NCBI GenBank assembly: GCA_007133495.1
Contig: SLMS01000243.1
Span: forward strand, 1 to 39,271
From: Candidatus Sumerlaeota bacterium
GTDB lineage: Bacteria; Sumerlaeota; Sumerlaeia; SLMS01
DNA: 39,271 nt
Direction: 5' to 3'
The position numbers were made by a program, and so were the translations under genes. Position 1 is the stretch's first letter, and each line of letters begins with the position of its first letter. The notes under the pieces were generated by a model. That model was given only the letters and a program-made list of their open reading frames with translations. It made no database searches and was not told the origin of the DNA. Shown here one piece after another: positions 1,120 through 31,635 of this stretch.

Positions 1120-2016
1120 ATGGACCCGATAGCAGCTTTCCTTCAAGGGGCCGTGCTTCCGGGCACGGTCATCTTTCTTTTGGTGCTGGCTCTGGGCTGG
1201 CGCGGTCTCGACGTGCGGGTCCCGCTGGCGGGGGGAGCCGTTGCCGCTGCGGCGGGATACTGGGCCGGGTATCTGGCGGTGTTCGGGGTGCCCGGCTTTC
1301 CGTCCGTTCGGTCGGTGGAATGGATGCCGCCCGCCGCAGCCGTCTGCGTGCTTCTGGCCGTGCCGTTCCTGACGCGGCATGGTGGCGCATTGTGGACAGC
1401 GGCGGCGTGGGTGCCGCTGTTGGGGGCACTCGCCTGGGTATGGCACATGGTTGCCAGGGGGGTGGTGCGCCGGGAGGAGTTCATCTGGCCCGGCGTTGGA
1501 GTGCTCGCGTTCGGCGCCCTGGTGGTTGCGGTGTTTCTGGCGCTTCCGGCGATGAGGACGTTCGCAAGAGAGGGCGAAGAGGAGGCCGGCGCCCGCCGCT
1601 GGCCGGTTGTGCCGTTTCTGCTGATGGTCCTGGCGACAGCGGCAAGCATCGGCTTGCTGGCGTCGGGTAGCGCGCGTGTGTCGCAGATGCTCGGCATCGT
1701 TGCGGCAGGGTCCGGGGCGGTTTGCGCGGCGGGACTCCTGACGCGAAACAACCCGGCGCTGCCCGGCGCGGAGGGCGTGCTGGCGATGCTCGCCGGCTTT
1801 CACCTGCTGCTGGCGACCTGGTATTCGGAGCTTGGCGCTCCGGCGGTCGTGGCCTTCATGGCGGCTGGGGTGGGCATCGCGGGCTTTGCGCTGGGCGAGC
1901 GGCTGGAAACCCCCGCGGGGCGCTGGCTGCGGATTGGCGGAGGAGCGGGTGCCATCGCGTTGAGCATTGCCACCACTGGACTTATCATCATTGTTCGAGG
2001 CCTGCCGGACCTCTGA
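1120..2016 (+). CDS. Polytopic membrane protein, unrecognised
   Basis: I do not recognise this 298-residue protein. It is very rich in Ala, Gly, Leu and Val, with about eight or nine hydrophobic segments spread over the whole length: for example near residues 10-27, 33-53, 68-84, 90-110, 120-143, 165-183, 189-207, 214-260 and 270-292. One short charged cytoplasmic-type loop (REGEEEAGARR) sits mid-protein. No catalytic motif stands out. The start ATG at 1120 has GGAGGG six bases upstream. It is 51 nt downstream of the YceI-like gene and may share its transcript. An integral membrane location is well supported; nothing more can be said. Confidence 0.75.
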   Translation: MDPIAAFLQGAVLPGTVIFLLVLALGWRGLDVRVPLAGGAVAAAAGYWAGYLAVFGVPGFPSVRSVEWMPPAAAVCVLLAVPFLTRHGGALWTAAAWVPLLGALAWVWHMVARGVVRREEFIWPGVGVLAFGALVVAVFLALPAMRTFAREGEEEAGARRWPVVPFLLMVLATAASIGLLASGSARVSQMLGIVAAGSGAVCAAGLLTRNNPALPGAEGVLAMLAGFHLLLATWYSELGAPAVVAFMAAGVGIAGFALGERLETPAGRWLRIGGGAGAIALSIATTGLIIIVRGLPDL

Positions 2017-2154: not shown

Positions 2155-3228
2155 ATGAGCACCACGGAAATCCCCGCCTCACTCCTCGAGAAGATCGAGG
2201 AGTATGCCGCCCACCCTACCACCCAAGTAACGTTGCGGCAGCTTTACGAGTTCGCCCGGAGCGCGAACGAGCGCACCTACATCCGCTCGGCCCAGTTCCT
2301 CCACCGGGAGATGCCGATCCGGCTCGCCGGCAAGGTCAAGGAACTGGAGAACATCCCCGGCGGGCTGTTCGAAGTTCCTTCCGTCCAGACGGTCAGGGAT
2401 TGGTACATCGAATCGTTCCGTGAGATCACGGCGTTCCCCTTCCCGCGGACCGTGGAGGACGACCGGAAGTTCAGCGAGCTGCTGGCACAGATCAAGTACC
2501 GGCACCGCAACCAGGTGCAGGTCATGGCGCGGGGTATTCAGGAGTTCCTGCGGCGGAACCCTTCCTCGGCGCTGGATGAGGAGGCGCTGCGGCACTTCCT
2601 CGACGGTTTCTACATGTCGCGCATCGGCATCCGCGTGCTGCTGGGGCATCATACAGCGCTGCACGAGAAGCTGCCGGGCTGGTCGGGGATCATCTGCGCG
2701 CGCACCTCGCCCAAGGAGGTGGCGGAGCGGGCGATGGCCGAGGCGGGGGACCTTTGCCGGCGGACGTACGGCGAGCCGCCGCCGGTGCGCATCGTCGGCA
2801 AGACGACACTCAGCTTCAAATACATCCCCTCGCACCTTTTCCACATGGTGTTCGAGCTGGCAAAGAACAGCTTCCGGGCCGTGATCGACCACCACGGCGA
2901 CCAGAACGGCTCGCTGCCGCCGGTCACGGTCGTCATTGCCGGCGGTGTGGAGGACGTCTCGCTCAAGATATCCGACGAGGGCGGCGGCATCCCGCGAAGT
3001 TGTATAGACAAGGTTTGGAACTATACGTACACCACGGCGAACCCGGAGCTGTTCCCCTACACGGGGGACGATTCGCTCATGGCGGGGCTGGGGCACGGCC
3101 TGCCGCTCTGCCGTCTATACGCAAGGTACTTCGGGGGGGACCTGCAATTGATCTCCCTCGAAGGCTACGGCACCGACTCCTACCTGCACCTGAGCCGGCT
3201 TGGCAACACGCTCGAAGCCATCCCCTGA
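2155..3228 (+). CDS. Mitochondrial-type pyruvate/branched-chain 2-oxoacid dehydrogenase kinase homologue (PDK/BCKDK family)
   Basis: The 357-residue protein aligns from end to end, from memory, with animal PDKs, not with ordinary two-component kinases. The N-terminal helical domain has LRQLYEFARS, FLHREMPIRLAGKVKEL and VRDWYIESF, then the histidine region RHRNQVQVMARG (His117) and FLDGFYMSRIGIRVLLGHH. The GHKL ATP-binding domain has an N-box HLFHMVFELAKN (Glu234, Asn238), G1 DEGGGIP (274-280), G2 GLGHGLP (311-317) and the family hallmark LYARYFGGDLQL...EGYGTD (336-341). There is no receiver, sensor or HAMP domain and no membrane segment, so it should be cytoplasmic. In eukaryotes the family phosphorylates serine on the E1-alpha subunit of PDH or BCKDH, lowering activity. 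That this one does so is inference. The L-serine dehydratase gene begins 24 nt downstream, so the pair is probably co-transcribed. Confidence 0.9.
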   Translation: MSTTEIPASLLEKIEEYAAHPTTQVTLRQLYEFARSANERTYIRSAQFLHREMPIRLAGKVKELENIPGGLFEVPSVQTVRDWYIESFREITAFPFPRTVEDDRKFSELLAQIKYRHRNQVQVMARGIQEFLRRNPSSALDEEALRHFLDGFYMSRIGIRVLLGHHTALHEKLPGWSGIICARTSPKEVAERAMAEAGDLCRRTYGEPPPVRIVGKTTLSFKYIPSHLFHMVFELAKNSFRAVIDHHGDQNGSLPPVTVVIAGGVEDVSLKISDEGGGIPRSCIDKVWNYTYTTANPELFPYTGDDSLMAGLGHGLPLCRLYARYFGGDLQLISLEGYGTDSYLHLSRLGNTLEAIP

Positions 3229-3252: not shown

Positions 3253-4632
3253 GTGATCATCAGCCTTTTCGACCTTTTCACGATCGGCATCGGACCGTCG
3301 AGCAGCCACACCGTGGGGCCGATGCGCGCCGCGCGGCTTTTCGCCCGGGCGCTGCGGAAGGGCGCACTGCTGCCGGAGGTCCGCGAGCTGCGGGTGGAGC
3401 TTTACGGCTCGCTCGCCCTCACCGGAAAGGGCCACGGCACCGACCGGGCGATCCTGCTCGGCCTGGAGGGCGAGACTCCGGAGGACATCGACCCCGGCAC
3501 GATCGGCCCGCGCGTGGAGGCGATCCGCTCCTCTGGCGAGCTGCGGCTCGCGGGCGAGCACGTCATCCACTTCGCGGAAAAGCACCACCTGCTCTTCCAC
3601 CGCAAGCGCCTGCCGCTGCACTCGAACGGGATGCAGTTCACGGCACTGGACGCCGGGGGGCGGGAGCTGCACCAGGCGTGTTACTACTCGGTGGGTGGGG
3701 GTTTCGTGGCGGACGAGAGGGCGATGGAGGGCACGGCCCCCGGCGCGGATGGTGGCCCCGGGATGCCTCACCCGTTTCGCAGTGCGGCGGACCTCCTGTC
3801 CATACACGAACGGACGGGGTTTTCCTTCGCCGGCATTGTCCTGGAAAACGAGAAGGTCCGCCGGAGCGGAGAAGAGGTTCTGGAGGGACTGGACCGCATC
3901 TGGGCGGCGATGCAGGAATGCGTCCAGCGGGGATGCTCGAACGAGGGCGAGCTGCCGGGCGGGCTCCGCGTGCAACGCCGCGCTCCCGGTATCTACAGGG
4001 AGCTGACCAGTCATCCCGAGCACGCCCTGCGCGATCCGCTGACGGTCATGGACTGGGTGAACCTCTACGCCCTTGCGGTGAACGAGGAGAACGCGGCGGG
4101 CGGGCGCGTGGTGACGGCTCCGACGAACGGCGCGGCGGGGGTCATGCCGGCGGTGCTGCATTATTATGACCGGTTCTGCCCGGGCGCGCGGGCGGAAGGC
4201 GTGCGGGAGTTTCTGCTCACCGCGGCCGCGATCGCGATCCTCTACAAGCTGAACGCCTCGCTCTCCGGCGCGGAGGTGGGCTGCCAGGGGGAGGTCGGCG
4301 TGGCGTGCTCGATGGCGGCGGGAGGGCTGACGGCGGCGCTCGGCGGCACGATGGGCCAGGTGGAGAACGCTGCGGAAATCGCCATGGAGCACAACCTCGG
4401 CCTGACGTGCGACCCCGTCGGCGGGCTGGTGCAGATTCCCTGCATCGAGCGCAACGCGATGGGCGCGGTGAAGGCGATCAACGCCTCCCGCATGGCCCTG
4501 CGCGGCGACGGGCAGCACTATGTCTCGCTCGACAAGGTGATCGACACCATGCGCCAGACCGGCGCGGACATGCAGACCAAGTACAAGGAGACCTCCCGCG
4601 GGGGCCTTGCGGTCAACGTGGTGGAGTGCTGA
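3253..4632 (+). CDS. sdaA: L-serine dehydratase, single-chain iron-sulfur type
   Basis: This enzyme deaminates L-serine to pyruvate and ammonia using an oxygen-sensitive [4Fe-4S] cluster. The 459-residue length matches the fused alpha-beta E. coli type (about 455). The N-terminal domain opens with the family signature [24 protein letters not shown]. The catalytic half has [14 protein letters not shown], the cysteine-bearing [17 protein letters not shown] and [16 protein letters not shown], which supply the cluster ligands. The start is GTG at 3253 because the family N terminus begins exactly there and a G-rich Shine-Dalgarno (GGGGAGGG) lies just upstream. It is coupled to the PDK-like kinase gene (24-nt gap). 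The product, pyruvate, is the substrate of the complex that such kinases regulate. Confidence 0.96.
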
Positions 4633-15317: not shown

Positions 15318-17141
15318 TTAGCCGCCTGCGTGGGCTGCCGAGTGCTTCAGCCGCTCATGGAGGCTGTCGAGCTGCTCGGGAAGCTCGGGCGGCAGCTTGT
15401 CGCCGAGCTTCTTGTAGAACTCGTCGATGCTGTCGAGTTCCGCCTGCCAGCCCTCCTTGTCGAGGGCGAGCAGGCCGGCCATCTGCTCTTCGCTGAAGTC
15501 CAGCCCGTCGAGGTCGATGGCGTCGTCTGTGGGAAGGATTCCGATAGGCGTTTCCTGACTTTTGCCGGTGCCTTCGACGCGCTCGCAGACCCACTTCAGG
15601 ACGCGGCTGTTTTCGCCGAAGCCGGGCCAGATGAACTTGCCTTTCTCGTCCTTGCGGAACCAGTTGACGAAGAAGATTTTCGGCAGCTTGGAGGCTTCGG
15701 TGCGGCGCTCCATTTCGATCCAGTGCGCCAGGTAATCGCCCATGTGGTAGCCGCAGAAGGGCAGCATGGCGAAGGGGTCGCGGCGCACGCCGGCGGCAAG
15801 GCCGATGGCGGCGGCGGTGGTCTCCGAGCCGGCGGCGGAACCGATGAACACGCCGTGTTCCCAGTCCTTCGATTCGTTGACCAGCGGGATGGTGGAGGCA
15901 CGGCGTCCGCCGAAGAGGAACGCGTCGATGGGCACGCCTTCGGGCTTCTCCCAGTTGGGGTCAATGACGGGGCACTGGGCGGCGGGGGTTGTGAAGCGGG
16001 CGTTGGGGTGGGCTGCCGGCTGGTCGGAGTCCGGGGTCCACTCGTTGCCCTTCCAGTCAATCAGCTTGCCGGGCGGATCGATGCCCATGCCCTCCCACCA
16101 GATGTCACCGTCGGGCGTGAGCGCCGCGTTGGTGAAGATGGTGTTCTTCGTGATGGTGGCCATGGCGTTGGGGTTGGTCTTGTCGGAGGTGCCGGGGGCG
16201 ACGCCGAAGAACCCGGTTTCGGGGTTCATGGCCCAGAGGCGCCCGTCCTCTCCGACGCGGATCCAGGCGATGTCGTCGCCGAGGCAGCGAAGCTTCCAAC
16301 CCGGCAGCGTGGGGTTCATCATGGCGAGGTTTGTCTTCCCGCAAGCGCTGGGGAAGGCGCCGGTGATGTAGTAGGTCTTTCCTTCGGGGGAGGTGAGGGA
16401 AAGGATGAGCATGTGCTCGGCGAGCCAGCCTTCGCGCTTGGCGACGGTGGAGGCGATGCGCAGGGCAAGGCACTTCTTGCCGAGCAGGGCGTTGCCGCCA
16501 TAGCCCGACCCGTAAGACCAGATGAGGTCTTCCTCGGGGAAGTGGACGATGAACTTCTTCTTGAGGTCGTGCTCGCAGGGCCAGGGCGCGTCCTTCTCGC
16601 CCGGTGCCAACGGGGCGCCGACCGTGTGGATGCACGGGATGTAATCGCCATCTGTGCCGAGCTTGTCGAGCACCGCCTGCCCCATACGGGTCATGATGCG
16701 CATGTTGACGACGACGTAGGCGGAGTCGGTGATTTCGATGCCGACCTTCGCGATGGGGGAGTCGAGCGGGCCCATGCAGAAGGGGATGACGTACATGGTG
16801 CGGCCGCGCATGCAGCCGTCGGAGATTTTTGTCAGGTGCTCCTTCATTTCCTTGGGGTCGGCCCAGTTGTTGGTGGGGCCGGCGTCTTCCTTCTTCGTGG
16901 TGCAGATGAAGGTGCGGTCCTCGACGCGGCCGACGTCGCTCGGGTGGGAGCGTGCCAGGAAGCTGCCAGGGCGCTTCTCGGGGTTGAGGCGTGTGAAGGT
17001 GCCGCCCTCGACCATCAGGTCGCAAAGGCGGTCGTACTCCTCTTGGGAGCCGTCGCAGATATACACGTCCTCAGGCTTGCAGAGCTTCTTTACCTCTTCC
17101 ACCCATGCGTTGAGTTTCTGGTGATTCGTTTTTCCAGCCAT
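15318..17141 (-). CDS. pckG: GTP-dependent phosphoenolpyruvate carboxykinase
   Basis: This enzyme interconverts oxaloacetate and PEP using GTP/GDP. The 607 residues match the GTP family (about 590-625), not the ATP family. Motifs: [28 protein letters not shown], the substrate loop [15 protein letters not shown], the kinase-1a P-loop [14 protein letters not shown] (near residue 265) with its hyperreactive Cys, the metal site CLGDDIAWI, and the late segment [13 protein letters not shown] with [25 protein letters not shown] (in parts). ATG 17141 fits the spacing to AAAGG better than the ATG at 17153, which abuts it. With sdaA and the PDK-like kinase in this window, it places the PEP/pyruvate node here. 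The upstream gap is 467 nt. Confidence 0.97.
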
Positions 17142-17608
17142 AACTGACGTCATCCTTTCATGCGGTCTTGATTCACGAAAATTGTTTCCGCCATGGTGCA
17201 GGTGCAGCGTTCCGGCATTGAGGGATTAGCATTGTTTCCTTTTCCGGATTCAAGGACTTCCACCCGTGTGGGACCCGTGCGCAGCCTGTTTCAAGAGGCG
17301 CGCGCCCTCGACCCGGAACAACCGGACTCGTGCAGGAGCGTTCGATTCTCGATGCGGTTGCTACGTTTCGGACCAGCGGGGATGCCTGCTTTGTTGCCTG
17401 ACGGAAAGTGGGGGATGGCTGAGCTGCTGAGCTCGGTGCTGCCTCGGGCTGGGTTGACTAGGGCGGCATCGGACCTCCTCCTTTCCGCCGCGGCCGATGT
17501 ACCGGCCGGCGAAAAGGACTCTGAGGTAATCAGGGTGGCGGAGGCAAACCGAAACGGCCGCCCCCGACGGTTTTCCAAGCAAGCGCTTGCCGATTGTGCT
17601 TTTGTGGA
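17142..17608. other. Gap of 467 nt with no supported gene, upstream of pckG
   Basis: I see no convincing coding sequence. An open frame on the plus strand (17193-17678) runs into the dehydrogenase gene on the other strand and has no family resemblance or codon support. Two inverted structures are present: the 12-bp palindrome GCAAGCGCTTGC (17579-17590), close to the end of the dehydrogenase gene, and CGGCCG...CGGCCG around ATGTAC near 17490-17510. The gap must carry the pckG promoter and perhaps a terminator, but no clear sigma70 pair was found. No tRNA signature is present. Confidence 0.6.
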
Positions 17609-18544: not shown

Positions 18545-20317
18545 TTACGACACCGGGCTGGCTGATGCCTCCCCGAGCACGTCCTGCACGATGCGGCGGA
18601 CACGCGGTTCCTGAAGCAGGCGCTCCTCCGCTTCCTCGTAGGTGAACCGGCGCGTGGCGAGCAGGATCGCCAACGGGATGATCTTCGAGCGGCCGACGGC
18701 ACGCTGCACGATGGTGCCGATCGCCGTGCCGGCGAGTTCCTGTTCGGTGGGCTGCTTCTTGAAGACGGCGTGGTGGAGCGCCCGGCGCGCGTCATCATCC
18801 GAGGCTCCAGCCAGACGCGCCACGAGCCGGCGCGAACGGTCGTAGAGCTTGGAGTTTGATATCCGCAGGTCGATCATGACGTTGCCGAATATCTTCCCCG
18901 CCATGGTGTGGGCGCCGGTGGTGATGGCGTTCAGGCCGAGCTTGAGCGCCAGCTCCGCCTCGTTGTTCATCGTGGGGAGGCATCCGGCACGGGGAACCTG
19001 GAGCACGCAGAGGTGGCCGAGGCTGTCCGGCAGATCGCTGGCGCGGGGCGGTTCTGTGGTGACGAGAAGCAGGGCGGTCTTGGCCTTGAAAACGGCGGCT
19101 TCCTGGAGCAGGCGCGCGGTGTTGTCCCCCACCATGCCGATGGCCACGCCGATGACCAGGTCGCCTTTGGATATGTCGGGCAGAACCTGCTGCTCGAAGT
19201 ACTTGTGGGTGATGTCGTAGGCCTTGCCCTTGGACTTCATGGCGGCAGTGCCGTAGCCGAGGAATTCCCACCCTTCGCGCAGATAGCCGCGCACGTCGTA
19301 TAGATCGGCCCCGAAGGTGGGCGGGCATTCGGAGGCGTCGATAATGCCGAGCATCCCGGCGCAGCCGCGCCCAAGGTAATGAATCCTGCCGTCCGAGCGC
19401 AGAGCGGTGCCGGCAAGGCGCACAAGCTCGGCCAGGGCGGGGACGTTGCTGTACGCCGCGTCCACGGCCCGGCTGAAGTGCCCGATCTGTTCGAGCAGCC
19501 GGCCGCGCAGCGGGATCAGGTTGTCGGCGGAGAATTCGAGAGTGCGCTCGCCGGCCGGCTTGGCCTCCTCCTGCACGATCTCCACCGCGAGGCGGAAGAT
19601 CGTCTCCAGGATGATCTTGGTGGCGCTGCCGCCCTTCATGCGAGTGGAGCCGGTGACGGCTTCCGGGCCAACGACGGGGTTCAGGAGCGTGAAACGGTCG
19701 GACTCCAGTGAAGAGTCGAGTACGTCCTTGACCGTTTTGTCCCACTCCTCGATGGGCGTGGCCCGGGCGAGCGAGGCGGGGTTGAACCCAAGGACGACGG
19801 AGTGGAAGGAGTCGTCCTGAAGGCAGAGTTCGGACTGGGCGGCGACGTAGGGCGCGGAGAGACCGGCGGTAATGCCGATGAACATCTTCGGGGCGGTGTT
19901 GCCTTCGATGGCGGCGGTGAGGTCCTTACTGGCGAGCGAGACGCTGTCCTCTGCAGCTTCCTGGGCCTGAATGAGGGCCTGTTCGCCGCCGGCCATGAGA
20001 GGCTTGAAGACTTCGGGGAGGCGCTCGGCGCGCAGGATGCGGTTGAACTCGGTGGCGAGTAGGTGGGCAAACCGGCCGCTGGTTCCTGCGCCGCTCAGCA
20101 GCACGAGGGAGCCCTCGTGCTTGAAGAGGCGGGAGAGCTGCCACGCCACGCGGGCCATGGCTTCGAGGCTTTCCTCGTCGAGCAGACCCGGCCATGTGTC
20201 GAAGCCGGAGAACATCTGGGCGTCCGCCTGGCGCAGGAGCCGGACGATGCCGACCGGATCGGCGATGTCCAGGTTCTCAGTCAGGCAGTTGCGGGATTCC
20301 GTGATCGGAGCGTTCAT
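18545..20317 (-). CDS. Double-SIS-domain protein of the GKRP/MurQ family (glucokinase regulatory protein-like)
   Basis: At 590 residues this is twice the size of bacterial MurQ and matches animal GKRP in size and order. SIS1 has LSGAGTSGRFAHLLATEFN (75-92) and AGGEQALIQAQEAAEDS. Glu90 and Glu120 fall where MurQ has its two catalytic glutamates. GKRP-like stretches follow: AGLSAPYVAAQ, VLGFNPASLARATPIEEW (175-192) and LNPVVGPEAVTGSTRMKGGS (212-231). SIS2 has YLGRGCAGMLGIIDASECPP then TFGADLYDVRGYL (to 346), which retains a MurQ-like ECPPTFG. Near the C terminus is TTGAHTMAGKIFGNVMIDLR then ISNSKL (to 491). MurQ cleaves the lactyl ether of MurNAc-6-P; GKRP binds fructose phosphates and inhibits glucokinase. 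Either role, or both, is possible. No kinase gene is adjacent. Confidence 0.88.
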   Translation of the reverse strand: MNAPITESRNCLTENLDIADPVGIVRLLRQADAQMFSGFDTWPGLLDEESLEAMARVAWQLSRLFKHEGSLVLLSGAGTSGRFAHLLATEFNRILRAERLPEVFKPLMAGGEQALIQAQEAAEDSVSLASKDLTAAIEGNTAPKMFIGITAGLSAPYVAAQSELCLQDDSFHSVVLGFNPASLARATPIEEWDKTVKDVLDSSLESDRFTLLNPVVGPEAVTGSTRMKGGSATKIILETIFRLAVEIVQEEAKPAGERTLEFSADNLIPLRGRLLEQIGHFSRAVDAAYSNVPALAELVRLAGTALRSDGRIHYLGRGCAGMLGIIDASECPPTFGADLYDVRGYLREGWEFLGYGTAAMKSKGKAYDITHKYFEQQVLPDISKGDLVIGVAIGMVGDNTARLLQEAAVFKAKTALLLVTTEPPRASDLPDSLGHLCVLQVPRAGCLPTMNNEAELALKLGLNAITTGAHTMAGKIFGNVMIDLRISNSKLYDRSRRLVARLAGASDDDARRALHHAVFKKQPTEQELAGTAIGTIVQRAVGRSKIIPLAILLATRRFTYEEAEERLLQEPRVRRIVQDVLGEASASPVS

Positions 20318-20445
20318 GCTGGCATTGTCCCTGTAGCGGTAGCGGCCGTGGGCTGCCACCGGAGCAGATGTCGCGCGGGTTTGGGGAGTCTCCGTGTGGG
20401 GACATGGGACGGAGGCTCGGCTGGCGCGGTCAAACGGAATGCAAA

Positions 20446-20478
20446 GCGCCCGCTCCGCCACTGGGGCAGAGCAGGCGC
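20446..20478 (-). terminator. Terminator of the ribosomal superoperon, after rplQ
   Basis: On the minus strand GCGCCTGCTCTGCC and GGCGGAGCGGGCGC pair over 14 bp, with two T-G wobbles and a 5-nt loop, followed by TTTGCATT. It lies 49 nt after the rplQ stop and before the GKRP-like gene. A TTGACC at 20433-20428 just beyond could be a -35 element for that gene, but no good -10 follows. Confidence 0.75.
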
Positions 20479-21038: not shown

Positions 21039-22067
21039 TCAGCGGTCCTTCTCCTCGGCGCTGGGGATCGGCATGCCGCGCTCGTCCAGCTCCATGTTGA
21101 AGCTGAGGCCCATTTCCTTCAGCACGGCCTTGATTTCTGAGAGCGACTTGCGGCCGAAGTTGCGGTACTTGAGCATTTCGTTTTCGGACTTCTGGACGAG
21201 GTCGCGGATGGTCTTGATGCTGGCGGCCTCAAGGCAGTTGAAGGAGCGGACGGACAGTTCGAGCTCCTCGATGGAGCGGTCGAGCGTGCGCTGGATGTCG
21301 CTTTCGGAGGCGGCTTCCTGGCCTTCCTGGTCGGCGCCAGCGGTGGTGGCAGCCTGCTGGTCCTCGGCGCGGATGAACAGATCGAGGTGGTCGCGCAGAA
21401 TCTTCGAGGCGTAGGAGACGGCCTCCTCGGGGCGGACCGAGCCGTTGGTGGTCACCTCCAGGGTGAGCCGGTCGTAGTCAGTGCGCTGGCCCACGCGGGC
21501 GTCGCTCACTTTGTAGGCGACCTGGCGCACGGGGGAGAAAACAGCATCGATGGGGATGATGCCAATGTCGTCCTCGTCCTCCATCGGGCCGTAGATGGCG
21601 GGCTGGTAGCCGCGGCCCTGGGCGATGAGGACTTCCATGGCAAGGCTGCCAGATTCGGACAGGGTGGCGATGGGCTGGTCGGGGTTGAGGATGGTGATGT
21701 GCTCGGGGACGGAGAAGTCCCCGGCGGTGACGACTCCCGGACCATCCTTCTCGAGCGTGATGGTGGCGCGGCCGTGGACGCCTTCCATTTTGAAGACGAC
21801 CTGCTTTAGGTTGAGGATGACGTCGGAGACGTCCTCCATCGCGCCGGGGATGCCGCTGAACTCATGCTTGATGCCCTCTATCCGCACGCTGGTGGCGGCG
21901 GCTCCCTGAATGGAGGAGAGCAGAATACGGCGGAGCGAATTGCCGATGGTATTGCCGAAGCCGCGCTCGAAGGGCTCCGCGTGAAAACGGCCAAAGGTGT
22001 CCGAGAGGGTGACGGGGTCGGCCTCGAGTCTTCCGGGGCGGATGAGCGGCTTGAGTTCCAGCTCCAT
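21039..22067 (-). CDS. rpoA: RNA polymerase alpha subunit
   Basis: The alpha dimer scaffolds RNA polymerase assembly and contacts activators and UP elements. The 342 residues show the N-terminal domain ([20 protein letters not shown] then [29 protein letters not shown]) to about 235, an Ala/Gln-rich linker, and the C-terminal domain with [20 protein letters not shown], then KTIRDLV and [20 protein letters not shown]. That C-terminal sequence is the usual DNA- and UP-element-binding surface, so upstream A/T tracts could matter for its promoters. The length is slightly above the usual 310-330. It lies between rpsD and rplQ, as is classical. Confidence 0.98.
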
Positions 22068-22143
22068 AAGTGGGCGAATCTCCTTGCGAGGGTCGAAAAG
22101 CAGAGGGTGAAGGGTTGCGTGCGGGGCGGGCCCGCTGTGGCGA

Positions 22144-22791
22144 TCAGCGCGAGTAAAGCTCGACGACGAGCTGTTCCTTCACGTCGATGTCGTCCAGGTC
22201 CTCACGCGAGGGCACTTGGAGGAACCGCGCCTTCATGCTTTCCTTGTCGAATTCGATGAAGGGTTTGTGACCGCCGCGGCGGGTGAGGATTTCCTGGGCG
22301 TCGTTGACGACCTGCATGAGCTTGGCGTTGTTGCGGGACTTTTCGCTCAGGGTGACCTCGTCCCCCGGCTTCACGCGGTAGGAGGGGATGTTGACCTTCT
22401 TGCCGTTCACCAGGATGTGGTTGTGGCCGACGAGCTGGCGCGCCTGCCGGCGGGTGGAGGCGAATCCGGAGCGGTAAACCACGTTGTCCAGGCGCGATTC
22501 GAGCAGTTGGAGCAGGACGGTGCCGGTGACGCCCTTGTAGCGGTCGGCGGTGGCGAAGTAGCGCCGGAATTGGCGTTCGAGGACGCCGTAGGTCCACTTG
22601 AGGGTCTGCTTTTCGCGAAGCTGCACGCCGTAGGTGGAGAGCTTGGTGCGCCGTCCCTGGCCGTGCTCCCCGGGCGGGTAGTTGCGGCGCTCAATGGCGG
22701 TCTTGCCGTTGAGGTCGCGCTCTCCCTTGAGGTGAAGTTTTTTCCCCAGGCGCCGTTCGAGACGGCAAACAGGGCCAAGATAACGAGCCAC
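22144..22791 (-). CDS. rpsD: 30S ribosomal protein S4
   Basis: S4 nucleates 30S assembly by binding 16S rRNA at the five-way junction. The 215 residues include the N-terminal domain with GPVCRLERRLGKKL and the S4 RNA-binding fold RLDNVVYRSGFASTRRQARQ then LVGHNHILVNGKKVNIPSY. The N terminus has only one Cys, so this is the zinc-free (C-minus) form. The start is GTG at 22791 with AGGAGG in AGGAACACCCAAA-type context upstream. It is located between rpsK and rpoA. Confidence 0.97.
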   Translation of the reverse strand: MARYLGPVCRLERRLGKKLHLKGERDLNGKTAIERRNYPPGEHGQGRRTKLSTYGVQLREKQTLKWTYGVLERQFRRYFATADRYKGVTGTVLLQLLESRLDNVVYRSGFASTRRQARQLVGHNHILVNGKKVNIPSYRVKPGDEVTLSEKSRNNAKLMQVVNDAQEILTRRGGHKPFIEFDKESMKARFLQVPSREDLDDIDVKEQLVVELYSR

Positions 22792-22843
22792 TTTGGGTGT
22801 TCCTCCTGAAAGGTTCGGTCGGGGTTGGTGTGGGTTGCTGTTT

Positions 22844-23239
22844 CTAGACGCGCCGGCGCTTGGGCGGCCGGCAGCCGTTGTGCGGCAGCGGGGTGACGTC
22901 GCGAATGGTGTTCACTTTGATGCCGGCGGCCTGCAATGCCCGCACGGAGCTTTCCCGGCCCGGGCCGGGGCCCTTGATGTAAACGTCCACGCTTGTCACG
23001 CCATGGTCCTGCGCCTGGCGGGTGGCGCGTTCGGCGGCCTGCCCGGCGGCGAATGGCGTGGATTTGCGCGAGCCTTTGAATCCGGCCGAGCCGGCCGAGG
23101 ACCAACTGATCACGTTTCCGGCATGGTCCGCAAAGGTCACGATGGTGTTGTTGAAAGTGGCGTGCACATGAACGATCGCGTGGGCGATGTTCTTGCGGGC
23201 TTTTCTTTTCGTGGTGGCCTTGGCCGCCTTCTTTGCCAT
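22844..23239 (-). CDS. rpsK: 30S ribosomal protein S11
   Basis: S11 lies on the 30S platform near the mRNA exit site. The 131-residue protein has the standard core: [20 protein letters not shown] then [40 protein letters not shown] and [20 protein letters not shown] followed by [20 protein letters not shown]. The N terminus is a short Lys/Ala-rich tail ([17 protein letters not shown]). It starts with ATG 60 nt after rpsM. Confidence 0.98.
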
Positions 23240-23299
23240 TCGGGTATTCTCTCCTTACGAGCCAGTTCTTCGGTTTGTGGTGCCCGCTGTTGCGGGGGG

Positions 23300-23671
23300 T
23301 TACTTTTTGCGGCCGCCGCCGACTGTTTTCGGGGCGCCCTTGCGGGTGCGGGCGTTGGTGCTGGTGCGCTGGCCGCGGACGGGCAGGCCGCGGCGGTGGC
23401 GCAGGCCGCGGTAGCAGCCGATGTCCATCAGCCGCTTGATGCTCTGTCCGACTTCGCGGCGCAGGTCACCTTCGACCCGGTACTTGCCGGCGATGATCGA
23501 GGAGATGCGGGTGATGTCGTCCTCGGTGAGGTCCTTGGTGCGGGTGGTGAGGTCCACTCCTGCCTCACGCAGGATTTTGCGCGAGGAGGTGGGGCCGATG
23601 CCGTAGATGTAGGGCAGGGCGAATTCGATCCGCTTTTCCTTGGGGAGGTCGATGCCGGCTATACGTGCCAC
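23300..23671 (-). CDS. rpsM: 30S ribosomal protein S13
   Basis: S13 forms intersubunit bridges and contacts P-site tRNA with its basic tail. The 123 residues begin [20 protein letters not shown] then [14 protein letters not shown]. The conserved [27 protein letters not shown] (in parts) and a Lys-rich end follow. The start codon is GTG at 23671; the second to fourth codons include GCA CGT ATA, with CTATAC on the opposite strand (23659-23664). It lies 15 nt after rpmJ. Confidence 0.98.
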
Positions 23672-23686
23672 TTTGTTTTTGCTCCT

Positions 23687-23800
23687 TTATCCTTGGCGCT
23701 GCTTGTGGCGGGGGTTCTCGCAAATGATGCGGATCACGCCCCTGCGGCGGATGATCCGGCATTTGTTGCAGATTTTCTTTACGGAGGCGCGTACTTTCAT
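23687..23800 (-). CDS. rpmJ: 50S ribosomal protein L36, zinc-binding form
   Basis: L36 is a 37-residue protein of the 50S subunit. The sequence [20 protein letters not shown] ends with [13 protein letters not shown], which gives the Cys-x2-Cys...Cys...His zinc set of the C-plus form. The start at 23800 is certain because the family begins with MKVR. The reading frame continues upstream without support. It lies 58 nt after infA. Confidence 0.97.
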
Positions 23801-23858
23801 GGTTCCTTGATCCTTGGTTTTTCCTGGGCCGGGGGGGGCGGTCTGGGCGCCCGGTTGC

Positions 23859-24077
23859 CTACTTCTTCCGGTACGTGATGCGGCCGCGGGTGAGGTCGTA
23901 GGGCGAGAGTTCGACCGAGACGTTGTCTCCGGGGAGGATGCGTATGAAGTGCATGCGCATTTTGCCGGAGATGTGTGCCAGGACTTCCATGCCGTTTTGC
24001 AGCTCCACGCGGAACATGGCGTTGGGGAGCTTTTCGACGACGACGCCCTCGACTTCGATACCCTTTTCTTTGGCCAT
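23859..24077 (-). CDS. infA: Translation initiation factor IF-1
   Basis: IF-1 blocks the A site of the 30S subunit during initiation. The 72-residue OB-fold protein reads [20 protein letters not shown], then [20 protein letters not shown] and [20 protein letters not shown], followed by [12 protein letters not shown]. The length is exactly that of the family. GAAAGAGG lies upstream of the ATG. A 136-nt gap with a GC hairpin separates it from map, the widest gap in the operon apart from the tuf leader, so it may have a promoter of its own. Confidence 0.98.
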
Positions 24078-24149
24078 AACCTCTTTCGCGCAAGGGTTGG
24101 ATGGCGACACAAACCCCTCTCGGTTCGCGACCGCAATTATCAATCCTGC

Positions 24150-24168
24150 CCGCCGGAACCCCCGGCGG
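24150..24168 (-). other. Intercistronic hairpin between map and infA
   Basis: CCGCCGG (24150-24156) and CCGGCGG (24162-24168) make a perfect 7-bp stem with a 5-nt loop. On the minus strand it lies between TTGACC (24174-24169 region) and TTGATAATTG. It could be an attenuator, an mRNA-processing site or part of an internal promoter region. Confidence 0.45.
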
Positions 24169-24213
24169 TCAAGGCCAATCACGGCCTTCGCGGCAGCCCT
24201 AACACGTTTCCTT

Positions 24214-25014
24214 TCAGTTGTCTTCGTCCCTCGTCAGGATTTCCGTCCCCCGGCTTCCGATCGCAACAGTGTGCTCGAAGTGCGCGGAGAGCGACCGGTC
24301 CGCCGTGACGACGGTCCAACCGTCCTCCAGCTCCTTCGTTTTGCCCGTGCCGATGTTGACCATCGGCTCGATCGCCAGGGTCAGCCCCTGGCCGATCCGT
24401 TTCCCCCGGCGCGCGCCGGTGTTGTACACTTTGGGGTCCTCGTGGCAGCGCCGGCCGATCCCATGGCCGGTGTATTCCTCCACCACCGAGAATCCCGCCG
24501 CGGTGACGTGCTCCTCGATGGCCTGTCCGATGTCCCCTACCCGGCCGCCGTAGCGCGCCGCGGCGATTCCCTTGTAGAGCGACTCCTCGCCCACGCGAAG
24601 CAGCCGCTCGGCTTCGGGGTCGAGCTTGCCGATGCCAATGGTCCAGGCATGGTCGGCGAAGAACCCGTCCAGGATGAGCCCGCAGTCTATCGAGACGATG
24701 TCGCCGCTCTTGAGCCGGCGCTTGCCCGGGATGCCGTGGACGACTTCCTCGTTTATGGAGATGCACAGCGTGTTCGGGAAGCTGTACAGGCCAAGGAAGC
24801 CGGGGACGGCGCCTGCTTCGCGGATGCGGCGATAGGCGAGCTTGTCGAGTTCGATGGTGGGGACGCCTTCGCCTGCGTTCTGGAGCACTTCGCGGATGAT
24901 GCGTCCGAGCAGCCGGCCTGCGCGGCGCATGGTGGCGATCTCGCTGGCGCTCTTGAGGTATATCTGGCCCTCGGGCGGCTCAGCGGTCTGATTGGTGGCG
25001 GCGGCGCAGAACAC
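24214..25014 (-). CDS. map: Methionine aminopeptidase type I
   Basis: This metalloenzyme removes the initiator Met from nascent proteins. The 266 residues hold all five metal ligands in their motifs: [17 protein letters not shown] (the two Asp), [16 protein letters not shown] (His, with the substrate His), LAIEPMV (Glu) and AHFEHTVAI (Glu). The substrate-binding [10 protein letters not shown] is also clear. The start is GTG at 25014, 10 nt from GAGGGA. Residues 1-20 before [20 protein letters not shown] extend slightly beyond short type Ia enzymes but contain no zinc-finger linker (type Ib/c). It lies 14 nt after adk. Confidence 0.97.
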
Positions 25015-25028
25015 GATGGGCCGGTCCC

Positions 25029-25682
25029 TCAGTAGTTCTCTTCGAAGATGGCGGCGATTTTCCGGAAGACCTCCTGGGGGTTTCCGGCGGCGTCGATGGT
25101 GTAGAGGCGGCCCTGATCTTCGTAGTATTCCAGGACCGGGCTGCTCTGTTCGCGATAGACGCGGAGGCGTTCGCGCACGGTTTCGGGCTGGTCATCCACG
25201 CGTTTGGTGAGCGGTCCGGAGCAGACGTCGCACACGCCCGCCTGGCGCGTGGGGTGGAAGTAGATATTGAACGTGGCCTTGCAGTCCGCGCAGATGCGCC
25301 GGCCGGTCAGGCGGAGCATGAGCGTCTCGTCCGGCACGTGAAGATTCAGGAGCGTGGGCTGGGACAGTGAGAACTCCTCGCAGGTTTCTTCAAGTTGCCG
25401 GGCCTGGTTGAGGGTCCGGGGGTATCCATCGAACAGGAAGCTGGCGGTCTGGCCGCGTTTTGAACCGATGATCTCCCGAAGCAGGCCGGTGACAATGTCG
25501 TCGCTGACGAGTTCGCCCTTTTCGATGATGGCCTGTGCCTTGAGGCCAAGCTCGGTCTTGTTGCGGATCGCCTGCCGGAGCGCATCTCCGGTGGAGATGT
25601 GCGTCATGCCGTAGTGCTCGACGATCAGGTCGGACTGTGTTCCTTTGCCGGAGCCCGGCGGGCCGAAGATAACCAGGTTCAA
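25029..25682 (-). CDS. adk: Adenylate kinase, zinc-LID type
   Basis: The enzyme balances ATP + AMP with 2 ADP. The 217-residue long-form protein has the P-loop GPPGSGKGTQSD (7-18), the AMP-binding STGDALRQAI, FLFDGYPRTLNQA and the LID domain with four cysteines, CADC...CDVC, as in zinc-binding enzymes. RVDDQPETVRERLRVYREQS is the usual end-of-LID segment. The start codon is TTG at 25682: GGAGGGG is 8 nt upstream and the family begins exactly at MNLVIFGPPG. It is embedded between secY and map as in many phyla. Confidence 0.97.
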   Translation of the reverse strand: MNLVIFGPPGSGKGTQSDLIVEHYGMTHISTGDALRQAIRNKTELGLKAQAIIEKGELVSDDIVTGLLREIIGSKRGQTASFLFDGYPRTLNQARQLEETCEEFSLSQPTLLNLHVPDETLMLRLTGRRICADCKATFNIYFHPTRQAGVCDVCSGPLTKRVDDQPETVRERLRVYREQSSPVLEYYEDQGRLYTIDAAGNPQEVFRKIAAIFEENY

Positions 25683-25696
25683 TGGTCAGCCCCTCC

Positions 25697-25738
25697 GGAG
25701 GCCGGGCCTCCGTCCGGCCCTGCCGGCGGTGCGGCAGG
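25697..25738 (-). other. Two adjacent hairpins between secY and adk
   Basis: GGAGGC/GCCTCC (25697-25702, 25706-25711) and CCTGCCG/CGGCAGG (25719-25725, 25732-25738) form two short GC-rich stem-loops. They occupy most of the 73-nt gap and lie directly before the adk Shine-Dalgarno on the minus strand. Together they may serve as an mRNA-processing or attenuation site. Confidence 0.45.
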
Positions 25739-25755
25739 TTCGTCCCCGGAACGGC

Positions 25756-27180
25756 TCACCTTGGCGAGGGCTTCTTGGCCCAGCGCTGTCCGCCGCCCTG
25801 CTGCCGGCGCGAGCGGAACCCGTCGTAGTGCCGCATGAGCATGCGCGATTCCACCTGCTTCATCGTGTCGAGCGTCACCGCCACGACAATGATCAGCCCG
25901 GTGCCGCCGGCGAAGTCCGCCAGCACGAACGGAATGTCGAACCCGGCCATGACGAGCTGCGGCATGACAGAGACGGTGACCAGGAAGACGGCGCCGACGA
26001 GCGTGATGCGGGTCATGACCTTGTCGATGTAGTCGGCCGTCTGCTTGCCCGGCCGGTATCCCGGCACGAAGGCACCGACCCGGCGCAGGTTGTCCGCCAC
26101 GTCCTGCGGGTTGAACACGATGGCCGTATAGAAGAAGCAGAAGAAGGCCACCAGCACGGCATAGACGAGCGTATAGAGGTTGGCCGCCTTGAGCAGGTTG
26201 AAGATGGCGCCGCGCTCAAGCCCGAACAGGTCGTAGAGGTTGTAGCGCGAGGTCATCGAGAACAGCTCGCCGATGAACCCAAGGCCCGTGCCCGGCTGGG
26301 CGCCGATCCAGCCGAAGATCGTCGTCGGCAGGGTCAGGATCGCCATGGCGAAGATGACGGGCATGACGCCGGCGGTGTTGACCTTCAGCGGCAGGTAGTT
26401 CGTCTGCGACTGCTGCATCTTGCGGCCGACGACCATCTTGGCGTGCTGGATGGGAATCTTCCGCGCCCCTTCCTGCACCAGAACGATCAGAATCGCCGCA
26501 ACCACCATCAGCACCGCGATCGAGAGCACGGCAAAGGGCGTCACCGCTTCGAGCCGCACGCTGGTGTAGGTGGCCAGCACGTTCGACGGGTAGGCCGCCA
26601 TGATGCCCAGCGCGATGATCATGGAGATGCCGTTGCCGACACCCTTCTCGGTGATCTTCTCGCCCAGCCACATCAGGAAGGTGGTGCCGGCGGTGACGGC
26701 GATGACCGTGGTGAAAAGGAACAGGACCGGTGTCTGCCGCATGAACGACATGATCACGTCCGGGTCCTGCATAATGAACAGGCCAAGGCCGAAGCCCTGG
26801 ACGGCGGAGAGAAGGACCGTTCCGTAGCGCGTGTACTGGGTGATTTTCTTCCGGCCGGCGTCGCCCTCCTTCGCAAGCTTCTCCAGCCTTGGCACCACGA
26901 CCATCATGAGCTGGAGAATAATGGAGGCGGAGATGTAGGGCATGATGCCCAGCGCCATGACGGACATGCGGGAGAAGTTCCCGCCGGTGAACAGGTCCGC
27001 CGCACCGAACAGCCCGCCCATGGCGCCTTCGGCGGAGAAGGCGTCCTGGAGGTTCTCCACGTCCACAAAGGGACAGGGGATGTGCGAGCCGATCCGGTAG
27101 ATCGCGATGATCATCAGCGTAAAGAGGATACGCCGGCGCAGGTCCCGGATCGAGAATAGATTGCGGAAAATCTGGAGCAT
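25756..27180 (-). CDS. secY: Preprotein translocase subunit SecY
   Basis: SecY forms the protein-conducting channel in the inner membrane. The 474 residues have ten hydrophobic segments. Signatures include RILFTLMIIAIYRIGSHIPC near the start, LGIMPYISASIILQLMMVVV (the family I-S-A-S-I motif), GEKITEKGVGNGISMIIALG, RKIPIQHAKM and the plug- and C5-loop region GYRPGKQTADYI. The length is a little above the usual 435-450, with a basic Gln/Lys-rich C-terminal tail (RSRRQQGGGQRWAKK). It lies 56 nt after rplO, with a hairpin in the gap. The start is ATG at 27180. Confidence 0.97.
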   Translation of the reverse strand: MLQIFRNLFSIRDLRRRILFTLMIIAIYRIGSHIPCPFVDVENLQDAFSAEGAMGGLFGAADLFTGGNFSRMSVMALGIMPYISASIILQLMMVVVPRLEKLAKEGDAGRKKITQYTRYGTVLLSAVQGFGLGLFIMQDPDVIMSFMRQTPVLFLFTTVIAVTAGTTFLMWLGEKITEKGVGNGISMIIALGIMAAYPSNVLATYTSVRLEAVTPFAVLSIAVLMVVAAILIVLVQEGARKIPIQHAKMVVGRKMQQSQTNYLPLKVNTAGVMPVIFAMAILTLPTTIFGWIGAQPGTGLGFIGELFSMTSRYNLYDLFGLERGAIFNLLKAANLYTLVYAVLVAFFCFFYTAIVFNPQDVADNLRRVGAFVPGYRPGKQTADYIDKVMTRITLVGAVFLVTVSVMPQLVMAGFDIPFVLADFAGGTGLIIVVAVTLDTMKQVESRMLMRHYDGFRSRRQQGGGQRWAKKPSPR

Positions 27181-27210
27181 ATGCTTCCAATCGGTCCAAT
27201 GACGTCGGGT

Positions 27211-27227
27211 GCCCCCTCAGCGGGGGC
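27211..27227 (-). other. Short hairpin between rplO and secY
   Basis: GCCCCC (27211-27216) and GGGGGC (27222-27227) form a 6-bp all-GC stem with a 5-nt loop inside the 56-nt gap. It could tune secY expression relative to the ribosomal proteins. No T tract follows. Confidence 0.45.
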
Positions 27228-27236
27228 CTTGTGGTG

Positions 27237-27695
27237 CTAGGCGCTTTCCGCGGCCGATCGCAACTCGCAAGTGCCGCCGGCGGCCTTGACTTTCTCCACG
27301 GCGGTCTTGCTCGCGGCATGCACCTTCACCGTGAGGGCCTTGGTGAGTGATCCGTTGGCGAGCAGCTTGACCGGCTTTTTGGTGCGTATGAGCTTTGCGC
27401 TGCGCAGTGCTGCCTCGTCCACCGCCGCTCCGGCCTCGAACTTCTTCTCGAGGCTGGAGAGGTTGACCACTTCGTATTCCACCCTGTGGGGGTTCTTGAA
27501 CCCGAACTTGGGCAGCCGGCGCTGGAGGGGCATCTGGCCGCCCTCGAAGCCGGGCGTCTGCTGGCCGCCGGAGCGGGACTTCTGCCCCTTGTGGCCCCTG
27601 CCGGATGTCTTGCCGTGGCCGGTTCCGTGACCCCGGCCCAGGCGCTTGCGCTTTTGCTGGCGCCCGGGATCGCCGGGCAACTCGTGAATCTTCAT
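27237..27695 (-). CDS. rplO: 50S ribosomal protein L15
   Basis: L15 is a late 50S assembly protein. The 152 residues have the Gly/Arg/Lys-rich N terminus (GHGTGHGKTSGRGHKGQKSR) and GFEGGQMPLQRRLPKFGF, both diagnostic; the C-terminal domain is typical (LLANGSLTKALTVKVHAASK). Its ATG overlaps the rpmD stop by one base (TAATG), so it is translationally coupled. The spacing to secY is 56 nt. Confidence 0.97.
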   Translation of the reverse strand: MKIHELPGDPGRQQKRKRLGRGHGTGHGKTSGRGHKGQKSRSGGQQTPGFEGGQMPLQRRLPKFGFKNPHRVEYEVVNLSSLEKKFEAGAAVDEAALRSAKLIRTKKPVKLLANGSLTKALTVKVHAASKTAVEKVKAAGGTCELRSAAESA

Positions 27696-27877
27696 TATTT
27701 AACCTCCTCCACCTCTAGCAGGTAGGAGACCTTGTCGATCATGCCCTTGATGGGGGGCGTCAGTTCCTTCTCCACCGTGTGATTGAGGCGCTTGAGCCCA
27801 AGGGCCTCGATGACCCGCCGGTGTGCGTGGCGGCTGGCGACGGCGCTTTTCTTCCAGGTGATGCGTACTTTCTTCAT
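27695..27877 (-). CDS. rpmD: 50S ribosomal protein L30
   Basis: L30 is a 60-residue protein binding 23S rRNA near the 5S region. The sequence has the family start (MKKVRITWKKSAVASRHAHR) and RVIEALGLKRLNHTVEKELT, then PPIKGMIDKVSYLLEVEEV. The L30 gene is absent from some phyla, so its presence is mildly informative. It lies 33 nt after rpsE and is coupled to rplO by a one-base overlap. Confidence 0.96.
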   Translation of the reverse strand: MKKVRITWKKSAVASRHAHRRVIEALGLKRLNHTVEKELTPPIKGMIDKVSYLLEVEEVK

Positions 27878-27910
27878 TTCGGGGTCCTTGAATTATCAGC
27901 CCTCTGGGCG

Positions 27911-28705
27911 TCAGGCCCTGCCGGGCGGAGTCTGTTCTTTTGCGGGCTGCTCTTCCTCGTCGCGCCGGCCGCCGGCGCTGTAAGTGCCGAGGCGGGCCTT
28001 GTCGCGGCGGTCGCGTTCCTGCGTCTGGACGACGTGGAAGCCGGAGAGGACTTCCTGGCGCTGACGGCGGTAGCGGTCCGCTGCCTTGCGGCCCATCATT
28101 TCCTCAAGCGTCTTGCCGCGGCGGGTGGCGACGGCCTCGGCCAGCTCCAGGTTGCGCAACCCCTCGAAGGTGGCGCGCACGACGTTGAGCTGGTTCTGGC
28201 TGCCGAGTGCCTTGGTCAGCACGTCCTGAACGCCGGCCAGGGTAAGGACGGCACGAGCGGGCGGGCCCGCAATAAGCCCGGTACCTTCGGAGGCGGGCTT
28301 CAGGAGAACACGGCCGGCGCCGAAGCGCCCCACCGTTTCGAAGGGGATCGTGCGCCCGACAAGTGGCACGCGGATCAGAGCCTTCTTCGCCGCCTCCACC
28401 CCCTTGGTGATCGAGTCGGGGACCTCGTTGGCCTTACCGAAGCCGACACCCACATGGCCGGCCCCGTCGCCAACGACGACGAGCGCGGCAAAACTGAAAC
28501 GCCGGCCGCCTTTGACGACCTTCGCCACGCGGTTGAGCGCCACGACCTCTTCCTGGAGGTTGAGCGTGGAGGGGTCGACAGGGGTGCGGAAGTTTTCCAC
28601 CGCGCGGGAGATTTGCTCGGCCGGACTGAGTTCCTGGGGAGCGGCCTGCTGCTCGCCGACGCCTTCCAGAGTGTCGTCTTGATTGAGTTGCTGCTCGTTG
28701 CTCAA
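27911..28705 (-). CDS. rpsE: 30S ribosomal protein S5 with long N- and C-terminal extensions
   Basis: S5 contributes to decoding accuracy and mRNA helicase activity at the entry channel. The core (about residues 48-215) has [20 protein letters not shown] then [40 protein letters not shown] and the [20 protein letters not shown] motif. The protein is 264 residues against a usual 160-170. About 45 acidic residues precede the core ([20 protein letters not shown]) and a basic-acidic tail follows. The start is TTG at 28705 with AAAGGA about 9 nt upstream; no ATG occurs before the core. Confidence 0.96.
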
Positions 28706-28741
28706 CGGTACGGTCCTTTCGTCTGCCTGCCAGTCAGTGGG

Positions 28742-29107
28742 TTAGAATTCGATTCCGGCTTCGCGGATGCCGTCGGCCAAGGCCTTGACGCATCCGTGGT
28801 ATCGGTATCCGCCACGATCGAAGACGATGCGCTCGATGCCGCGGGACTTCAGTTCCTTGCCGATTGTCTGGCCGAGTTCGGTGGCGTGGCCGATGTTACG
28901 CATGTGCTTGCCGGCGGTGTCCTTGCTCAGGGTGGTGAAGGTCGCCAGGGTATGGCACCCGGTGGCCGGGCTGTCGTCGGTGACAGTGGCGTAAAGGTGC
29001 TTGAGCGTTTTGCGCACGCAGAGCCTTGGCCGTTCGGCCGTGCCGGAGACCTTCTTGCGGACGCGCAGGTGGCGGCGTTGCCGTTTGTCGTGGCGAGTGA
29101 GTTGCAT
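28742..29107 (-). CDS. rplR: 50S ribosomal protein L18
   Basis: L18 carries 5S rRNA into the 50S subunit together with L5. The 121 residues include the basic N terminus (RHDKRQRRHLRVRKKVSGTA), the RPRLCVRKTLKHLYATVTDD core, and the conserved end IERIVFDRGGYRYHGCVKAL then ADGIREAGIEF. The start at 29107 is chosen because an A-rich Shine-Dalgarno (AGGAGAAG) precedes it and the family begins there. The frame is open upstream without support. Confidence 0.97.
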   Translation of the reverse strand: MQLTRHDKRQRRHLRVRKKVSGTAERPRLCVRKTLKHLYATVTDDSPATGCHTLATFTTLSKDTAGKHMRNIGHATELGQTIGKELKSRGIERIVFDRGGYRYHGCVKALADGIREAGIEF

Positions 29108-29182
29108 GTTTTCTTTCTTCTCCTGCCTTCCGGGAGGCCACGCCTTGTAGCGGCCTCCAGGCAAAAGTGGGATGGCCTTGGG

Positions 29183-29719
29183 TTACTTGGTGGACTTGCC
29201 TGCCTTGCGGATGACCCGCTCACCGGCGTACCGGATGCCTTTGCCCTTGTAGGGCTCGACCGGGCGCACGGCCCTGATCTCCGAGGCAATCTGCCCGACC
29301 ACCTGCTTGTCAATCCCCTCCACCACAACCGAGGTGGGCTTGGGCACCTGGAAGGTGATCCCTTCGGGGGCCTTGTAGATGACGGGGTTGCTGTAGCCCA
29401 TGTTCATGGTCAGGTCGCGGCCCTGCAGTGCCACGCGGTAGCCGACACCCTGGATTTCGAGCTCCCTGCGGAAGCCCTCGGTGACGCCGGTGACGCAGTT
29501 GGAGAGCAGGCGCTGATAGAGCCCGTGGTAGGCGCGGGACTGGCGCGAGTCGTCGAAGCGGTGAACGACAAGGGCGCCGTCCTCCTGCTTCACCTCCACG
29601 CGCCCGTGATGGACCATGCCGAGGGTACCCTTGGGCCCCTTGACGGTCACTTCGGACGGGGTGAGCTTCACCTCGACCTTTTCGGGAACTTTGATGGGCA
29701 GTTTTCCAATGCGGCTCAC
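29183..29719 (-). CDS. rplF: 50S ribosomal protein L6
   Basis: L6 binds near the sarcin-ricin loop and factor-binding centre. The 178 residues read MSRIGKLPIKVPEKVEVKLT at the start and contain VTVKGPKGTLG, the Y/F-rich middle, GYSNPVIYKAPEGITFQVPK and the C-terminal signature PVEPYKGKGIRYAGERVIRK. The length is canonical. The start is GTG at 29719 with GGAGG upstream (ACGGAGGACACGGCC). It is located between rpsH and rplR. Confidence 0.98.
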   Translation of the reverse strand: MSRIGKLPIKVPEKVEVKLTPSEVTVKGPKGTLGMVHHGRVEVKQEDGALVVHRFDDSRQSRAYHGLYQRLLSNCVTGVTEGFRRELEIQGVGYRVALQGRDLTMNMGYSNPVIYKAPEGITFQVPKPTSVVVEGIDKQVVGQIASEIRAVRPVEPYKGKGIRYAGERVIRKAGKSTK

Positions 29720-29762
29720 GGCCGTGTCCTCCGTTCGTCGTTTGCGTGGGAAGTGCGCGGGG

Positions 29763-30158: not shown

Positions 30159-30186
30159 ACTTCTTGGTGTTCCTCCGGGAGATCGG

Positions 30187-30789: not shown

Positions 30790-30839
30790 GATGCTCTCTG
30801 TTGCTCCGCTTCTAAAGCTCCCGAGGTTTCGCCGATGGA

Positions 30840-31175: not shown

Positions 31176-31231
31176 GGCTTTTGACTTCACTCCTCTTGCG
31201 CTGTCGGCGCGTGGCGGCGGTGCCGGAGGGG

Positions 31232-31600: not shown

Positions 31601-31635
31601 CGGTTTCCCTTTAGCCTCGCGTTAGCCGTTTTGCC

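Follow-up and report, generated by a model that had tools for sequence, protein, structure and literature searches.

Control of pyruvate dehydrogenase (PDH) by pyruvate dehydrogenase kinase (PDK) is treated as a mitochondrial hallmark. A gene from Candidatus Sumerlaeota raises the question of whether a bacterium, too, encodes a kinase of this kind, and on which protein it would act. We analysed the window, i.e. the whole stretch of 39,271 nucleotides of contig SLMS01000243.1, and the genome to which it belongs. The host is the metagenome-assembled genome (MAG) CSSed165cm_369 (3,733,477 bases in 344 contigs), whose source is Cock Soda Lake according to PMC8092238. The same paper notes pdh and por in Sumerlaeota, and a term search of its text found no mention of the kinase. 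A search of the openly accessible literature found no description of a bacterial PDK.

The gene consists of one ORF of 357 codons with an ATG start (Table 1). An initial annotation had assigned the full PDK/BCKDK architecture to its product and had set it apart from ordinary bacterial histidine kinases, and both statements hold. All of the strings named as characteristic (RHRNQV, HLFHMVFELAKN, DEGGGIP, GLGHGLP, LYARYFGGDLQL and EGYGTD) are present, and the two proposed Pfam families match, PF10436 with 160.3 bits (E = 4.5e-47, cut-off 24) over the full profile (1-160) and PF02518 (HATPase_c) with 41.9 bits (E = 1.5e-10). Two-component histidine kinases (HisKA plus HATPase_c) share the GHKL ATP-binding domain, but the Pfam profile search revealed neither a HisKA-type dimerisation/phospho-acceptor domain nor a recognised sensor domain in the window kinase, and its R domain is of the PF10436 type. 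No NCBIfam model matches the protein. When the PDB was searched with phmmer, all 20 sequence matches were PDK1-4 or BCKDK; rat PDK2 was the best (2.5e-67 over residues 13-351), and the bit scores were 230 for PDK versus 220 for BCKDK. AlphaFold2, supplied with an alignment of 15 bacterial homologues, yielded a model with a mean pLDDT of 86 and a pTM of 0.86, which is the best of five, the others having pLDDT values of 57-73. The top 50 fold matches of this model in the PDB are likewise all PDK or BCKDK, with E values down to 1.6e-26. Chance is excluded as a source of these matches, and we regard it as virtually certain that the product truly belongs to the PDK/BCKDK family.

Table 1. Features of the kinase locus, with positions in the window, and the candidate target peptide.
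Feature	Positions	Strand	Basis
Hydrophobic protein, no family assigned	1120..2016	+	Position upstream of kinase kept in L011
PDK/BCKDK-family kinase gene, 357 aa	2155..3228	+	Pfam, PDB sequence matches, fold model
N-terminal regulatory (R) domain, PF10436 BCDHK_Adom3, residues 24-181	2224..2697	+	Pfam
His117, equivalent to PDK2 His115, pyruvate/dichloroacetate pocket	2503..2505	+	Alignment with PDK2, PDK3, BCKDK
C-terminal ATP-binding domain (GHKL / HATPase_c), residues 225-346	2827..3192	+	Pfam PF02518
N-box HLFHMVFELAKNSFR; His230, Glu234 (PDK2 Glu243, general base), Lys237, Asn238	2833..2877	+	Alignment
G1 box DEGGG, residues 274-278	2974..2988	+	Alignment
G2 box GLGHGLP, residues 311-317	3085..3105	+	Alignment
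L-serine ammonia-lyase, pyruvate-forming	3253..4632	+	Pfam; NCBIfam TIGR00720, 691.8 bits
Candidate phosphopeptide of Sumerlaeota E1-alpha, RYRGHSMSDPATSYR			

Residues were mapped by aligning 15 bacterial kinases with PDK2, PDK3 and BCKDK. The N-box Glu, Lys and Asn (Glu243, Lys246 and Asn247 of PDK2) are invariant in all 15 and in the three references. The equivalent of PDK2 Asp282 and both sets of G-box glycines are invariant across the 15 bacterial kinases, and the N-box His (PDK2 His239) is present in 14 of them, whereas BCKDK lacks it. In PDK2, the pyruvate/dichloroacetate (DCA) pocket is lined by residues that we take to be Leu53, Tyr80, Ser83, Arg112, His115, Ser153, Arg154, Ile157 and Arg158. 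All of these are retained in the window kinase except Arg112, which is Lys here and in all bacterial kinases aligned, and Leu in BCKDK. In the numbering of the window kinase, the R domain thus contributes Tyr84, Ser87, Lys114 (Arg in PDK2), Ser155, Arg156, Ile159 and Arg160 besides His117. PDK2 Asp117 is replaced by Asn, Thr, His or Ser in the bacterial kinases.

Like mitochondrial PDK1-4, the bacterial kinase combines an R domain with a GHKL domain, keeps the N-box and G-box residues and most of the pocket, and has no HisKA domain; identities of PDK2/PDK3 to the bacterial kinases are 34-46% (36-37% for the window kinase). Unlike PDK1-4, it has Lys in the pocket, no targeting sequence is expected, and its presumed partner is a bacterial PDH. 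Like the other bacterial kinases, the window kinase also lacks the C-terminal cross-tail involved in lipoyl-domain binding in PDKs; it ends where the ATPase domain ends. Since the tail is also absent from BCKDK, membership in the wider PDK/BCKDK family is unaffected; we leave the narrower label PDK aside. BCKDK shares the fold (TM, normalised by query length, up to 0.83), but it is 31-38% identical to the bacterial kinases and lies on a very long branch. A short, tail-less relative of PDK offers material for studies of structure and inhibitors.

Other known members of the family are eukaryotic, and the available eukaryotic sequences leave its root unsettled, both of which could suit contamination with eukaryotic DNA or a recent transfer from a eukaryote without lasting consequence. 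However, the kinase shares its contig with genes for EF-Tu, L3, L2, S3, SecY and RpoA, and a second soda-lake MAG (L011) has the same gene order, comprising a hydrophobic protein, the kinase and a serine dehydratase-sized gene. Kinases occur order-wide with 50-87% identity, one of them (G007) on a contig of 1.26 Mb. The reading frame is uninterrupted, the GC content of the gene equals that of the host, and dN/dS is about 0.10 between the window kinase and the copy of a close relative (87% identical); close pairs give 0.10 and 0.08. The kinase gene belongs to the bacterium itself and evolves under purifying selection. Contamination, an alternative already raised in the initial annotation, is excluded by synteny, by the ribosomal-protein genes on the contig and by order-wide inheritance, and together with recent transfer it is extremely improbable; an old transfer may have occurred. 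In the window, the genes for RpoA, SecY, S3, L2, L3 and EF-Tu were confirmed at 21039-38321 (-); judging by the sizes and the arrangement of the genes, this region may represent the S10-spc-alpha ribosomal protein operons.

Human PDH E1-alpha has three phosphosites (PMC5322387). In a PF00676 search, several E1 proteins were found per genome. The PDH E1-alpha of the host (G000:C93:11056-11943) matches the TIGR03182 equivalog model with 437.9 bits (cut-off 393.85), and human PDHA1 is its top match in the PDB (4.1e-83). Its segment GMGTS aligns with GMGTSVER of human PDHA1, and HSMSDPATSYR with the other loop of that protein. The host loops are NNLYGMGTSVVRSHA and RYRGHSMSDPATSYRTKDEV, and the human counterpart of the first is NNRYGMGTSVERAAA. 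With the three human sites placed within these loops, as we assume them to be, the host E1-alpha has serine counterparts of all three. The genome of the kinase therefore also encodes an E1-alpha whose serines line up with the PDK sites, as the initial annotation had recommended looking for.

Throughout the order, the PDH E1-alphas (11/11, from 10 kinase-bearing genomes and the kinase-less G002) share a three-residue DP-AT[ST]-YR loop, in which site 2 is always Ser or Thr and which, from site 1 to site 2, is as long as in human PDHA1. Site 3 is Ser in the host protein and in human PDHA1, but Ala in several relatives. Among Planctomycetota, the loop is shorter and the site-2 residue missing in 27 E1-alphas from kinase-less genomes; in G064, which has the kinase, it is longer and contains Ser (HSMSDPVHSHYR). 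The longer loop is suggestive of a kinase target, although the kinase-less sister G002 has it as well. Kinase-bearing Acidobacteriota have the short loop HSMSDPATYR with site 1 only, which indicates that site 2 is not required. The site-1 Ser is kept in most bacterial PDH E1-alphas examined from kinase-less genomes and therefore carries no weight on its own. In genome G065, none of the E1-alphas examined has the site. Within the Sumerlaeota order, the kinase is present in 10 of the 11 genomes carrying this PDH.

We consider it probable (about 0.7) that the kinase phosphorylates the cell's own PDH E1-alpha as physiological target and thereby blocks PDH. Kinase activity, the E1-alpha target and an inhibitory effect are the most likely interpretation of family membership, conserved residues, selection, substrate sequence and co-occurrence. 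As kinase and PDH with the same target serines occur in one bacterial genome, this control system is probably not restricted to eukaryotes, and the age and origin of PDH control become testable.

A different main target is conceivable for a PDK-family Ser kinase, e.g. a fused E1 alpha-beta of the branched-chain type, as for BCKDK in animals. The host has such a fused E1 of 819 aa, accompanied by a separate lipoyl E2 (L101:1332-5296) and located on the same contig as the PDH E1-alpha (G000:C93); in homologues of this fused E1, a loop similar to site 1 reads HSLSDDQVYYR. The nearly equal scores of the window kinase with BCKDK and PDK as well as the short C-terminus shared with BCKDK would fit this assignment. 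On the other hand, fused-type E1 also occurs in the kinase-less genomes G002 and G006, and the scores of f2-family kinases are clearly better for PDK than for BCKDK. The kinases of Acidobacteriota and Planctomycetota are nearer to PDK2/PDK3 (43-46% identity) than to BCKDK (34-35%), and linkage, where seen, is to PDH or 2-oxoacid:ferredoxin oxidoreductase. We thus judge a fused-E1 target to be unlikely. Less probable still is a protein or histidine kinase that has merely retained the PDK fold and serves an ordinary two-component-like pathway or modifies an unrelated substrate, even though the GHKL fold is common to histidine kinases, the R domain harbours the conserved His117 and gene neighbourhoods differ widely between genomes. 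This His corresponds to the pocket residue His115 of PDK2, and all of the kinases conserve the pyruvate pocket and the R domain specific to PDK. HisKA is missing, a scan of neighbouring genes found no response regulator, and in Sumerlaeota the kinase occurs together with PDH.

Phosphorylation of PDH E1-alpha, the reading that we prefer, could proceed as follows. ATP would bind to the GHKL domain with Glu234 acting as base, and the kinase would phosphorylate serines in the E1-alpha loops so that the PDH complex is blocked; a phosphatase would reverse the modification. Pyruvate in the R-domain pocket would restrain the kinase, as in PDK2. In animals, pyruvate inhibits PDK, whose activation is linked to high levels of acetyl-CoA (PMC3520047); since the pocket is conserved, pyruvate inhibition of the bacterial kinase is suggested. 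The NAD-dependent PDH would then be turned off at low pyruvate or high reductant/acetyl-CoA, and the ferredoxin-dependent PFOR would take over pyruvate oxidation when oxygen is scarce. We put forward this PDH/PFOR switch tentatively, as a possible rather than a probable role. For Sumerlaeota, it is proposed in PMC8092238 that por operates in anoxic and pdh in oxic settings. POR_N proteins are present in all 15 kinase-bearing genomes tested, and most of the Sumerlaeota genomes among them have a match in a frame some 1,200 codons long, which would fit a single-chain PFOR. G002, the sole genome of the order with this PDH but without the kinase, has no POR_N match (one genome, 91% complete). The co-occurrence of kinase and PFOR, with this one negative case, is suggestive. 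The window contains a further enzyme of the pyruvate/PEP node, a GTP-dependent phosphoenolpyruvate carboxykinase at 15318-17153 (-).

The gene neighbourhood of the kinase varies. In G011, genes for E1-alpha, E1-beta and E2 are followed, after a gap of some 800-900 bases, by the kinase gene. However, conservation around the kinase sets in at L021:5221, some 800 bases past E2 and about 100 bases before the kinase start codon, and for this reason the kinase in G011 is probably its own transcription unit. In the sister genome G010, an aldo/keto reductase gene and recA come after the PDH genes instead. PDH operon linkage is therefore weakened as main evidence, G011 being the sole case. In the Acidobacteriota L017 and L020, alpha- and beta-subunit genes of a 2-oxoacid:ferredoxin oxidoreductase precede the kinase gene, which lies about 200 bases past the beta gene; the remaining neighbourhoods are unrelated. 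In the window, the L-serine ammonia-lyase gene begins 24 bases downstream of the kinase on the same strand, in an order that recurs in L011, and the two are possibly co-transcribed. The upstream hydrophobic protein, without a Pfam or NCBIfam match, is probably a membrane protein. In the host genome, a WD40-repeat protein with about ten repeats (L101:7273-9366) is encoded near the 2-oxoacid dehydrogenase genes.

That bacterial members of the family are uncommon, as had been assumed at the outset, was borne out by their sparse distribution in the sampled genomes, which come from a limited set of phyla and include few of the Proteobacteria. The kinase is present in 10 of the 12 genomes of the host's order, in both families, and in none of 28 Sumerlaeota genomes outside the order. 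Among Acidobacteriota, it was found in one of 347 evenly drawn genomes (the centre genome itself) and in 4/12 genomes within one order, one copy being a fragment. Two of 392 Planctomycetota genomes exceeded the family cut-off, both among 10 genomes of one order. None of 14 control genomes and no plasmid record gave a match. Beyond these two orders in Acidobacteriota and Planctomycetota, the very patchy distribution includes almost nothing among the sampled genomes. Occurrence in three scattered orders of three phyla implies transfer among bacteria or extensive loss.

The unrooted tree included mammalian PDK2, PDK3 and BCKDK as eukaryotic sequences, checked letter by letter against the PDB. The Sumerlaeota f1 kinases form one clade (support 100/100), those of Acidobacteriota and Planctomycetota group moderately (93/91), and the eukaryotic kinases lie on very long branches. 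A plant PDK of unverified sequence, to be taken as a lead only, is 43-52% identical to the bacterial kinases and groups weakly with those of Acidobacteriota and Planctomycetota (80/82); with this sequence included, a single eukaryote clade was not rejected by the AU test (p = 0.29, or 0.41 without BCKDK). An ancient bacterial origin of mitochondrial PDK is a doubtful proposition. Just as speculative is a scenario in which covalent PDH control was born in bacteria as a PDH/PFOR switch and eukaryotes acquired the kinase, or share its ancestor, along with that logic.

Some further observations concern the sequences collected. Contig L016 is titled Acidimicrobiia, but its genome groups with the same order as the Acidobacteriota genomes of the collection, and the title is probably wrong. 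In Planctomycetota, a 967-codon frame (L067, G626:C143) has a weak PF10436 match below the cut-off (19.8 bits), possibly a distant relative or a chance match. The window itself encodes a 638-aa protein at 18545-20461 (-) to which each of the three models for glucokinase regulatory protein (GKRP) fits, covering its SIS domains and C-terminal lid. According to PMC8092238, glk has been lost in this Sumerlaeota subgroup. The GKRP-like protein represents a second animal-type metabolic regulator family in the window.
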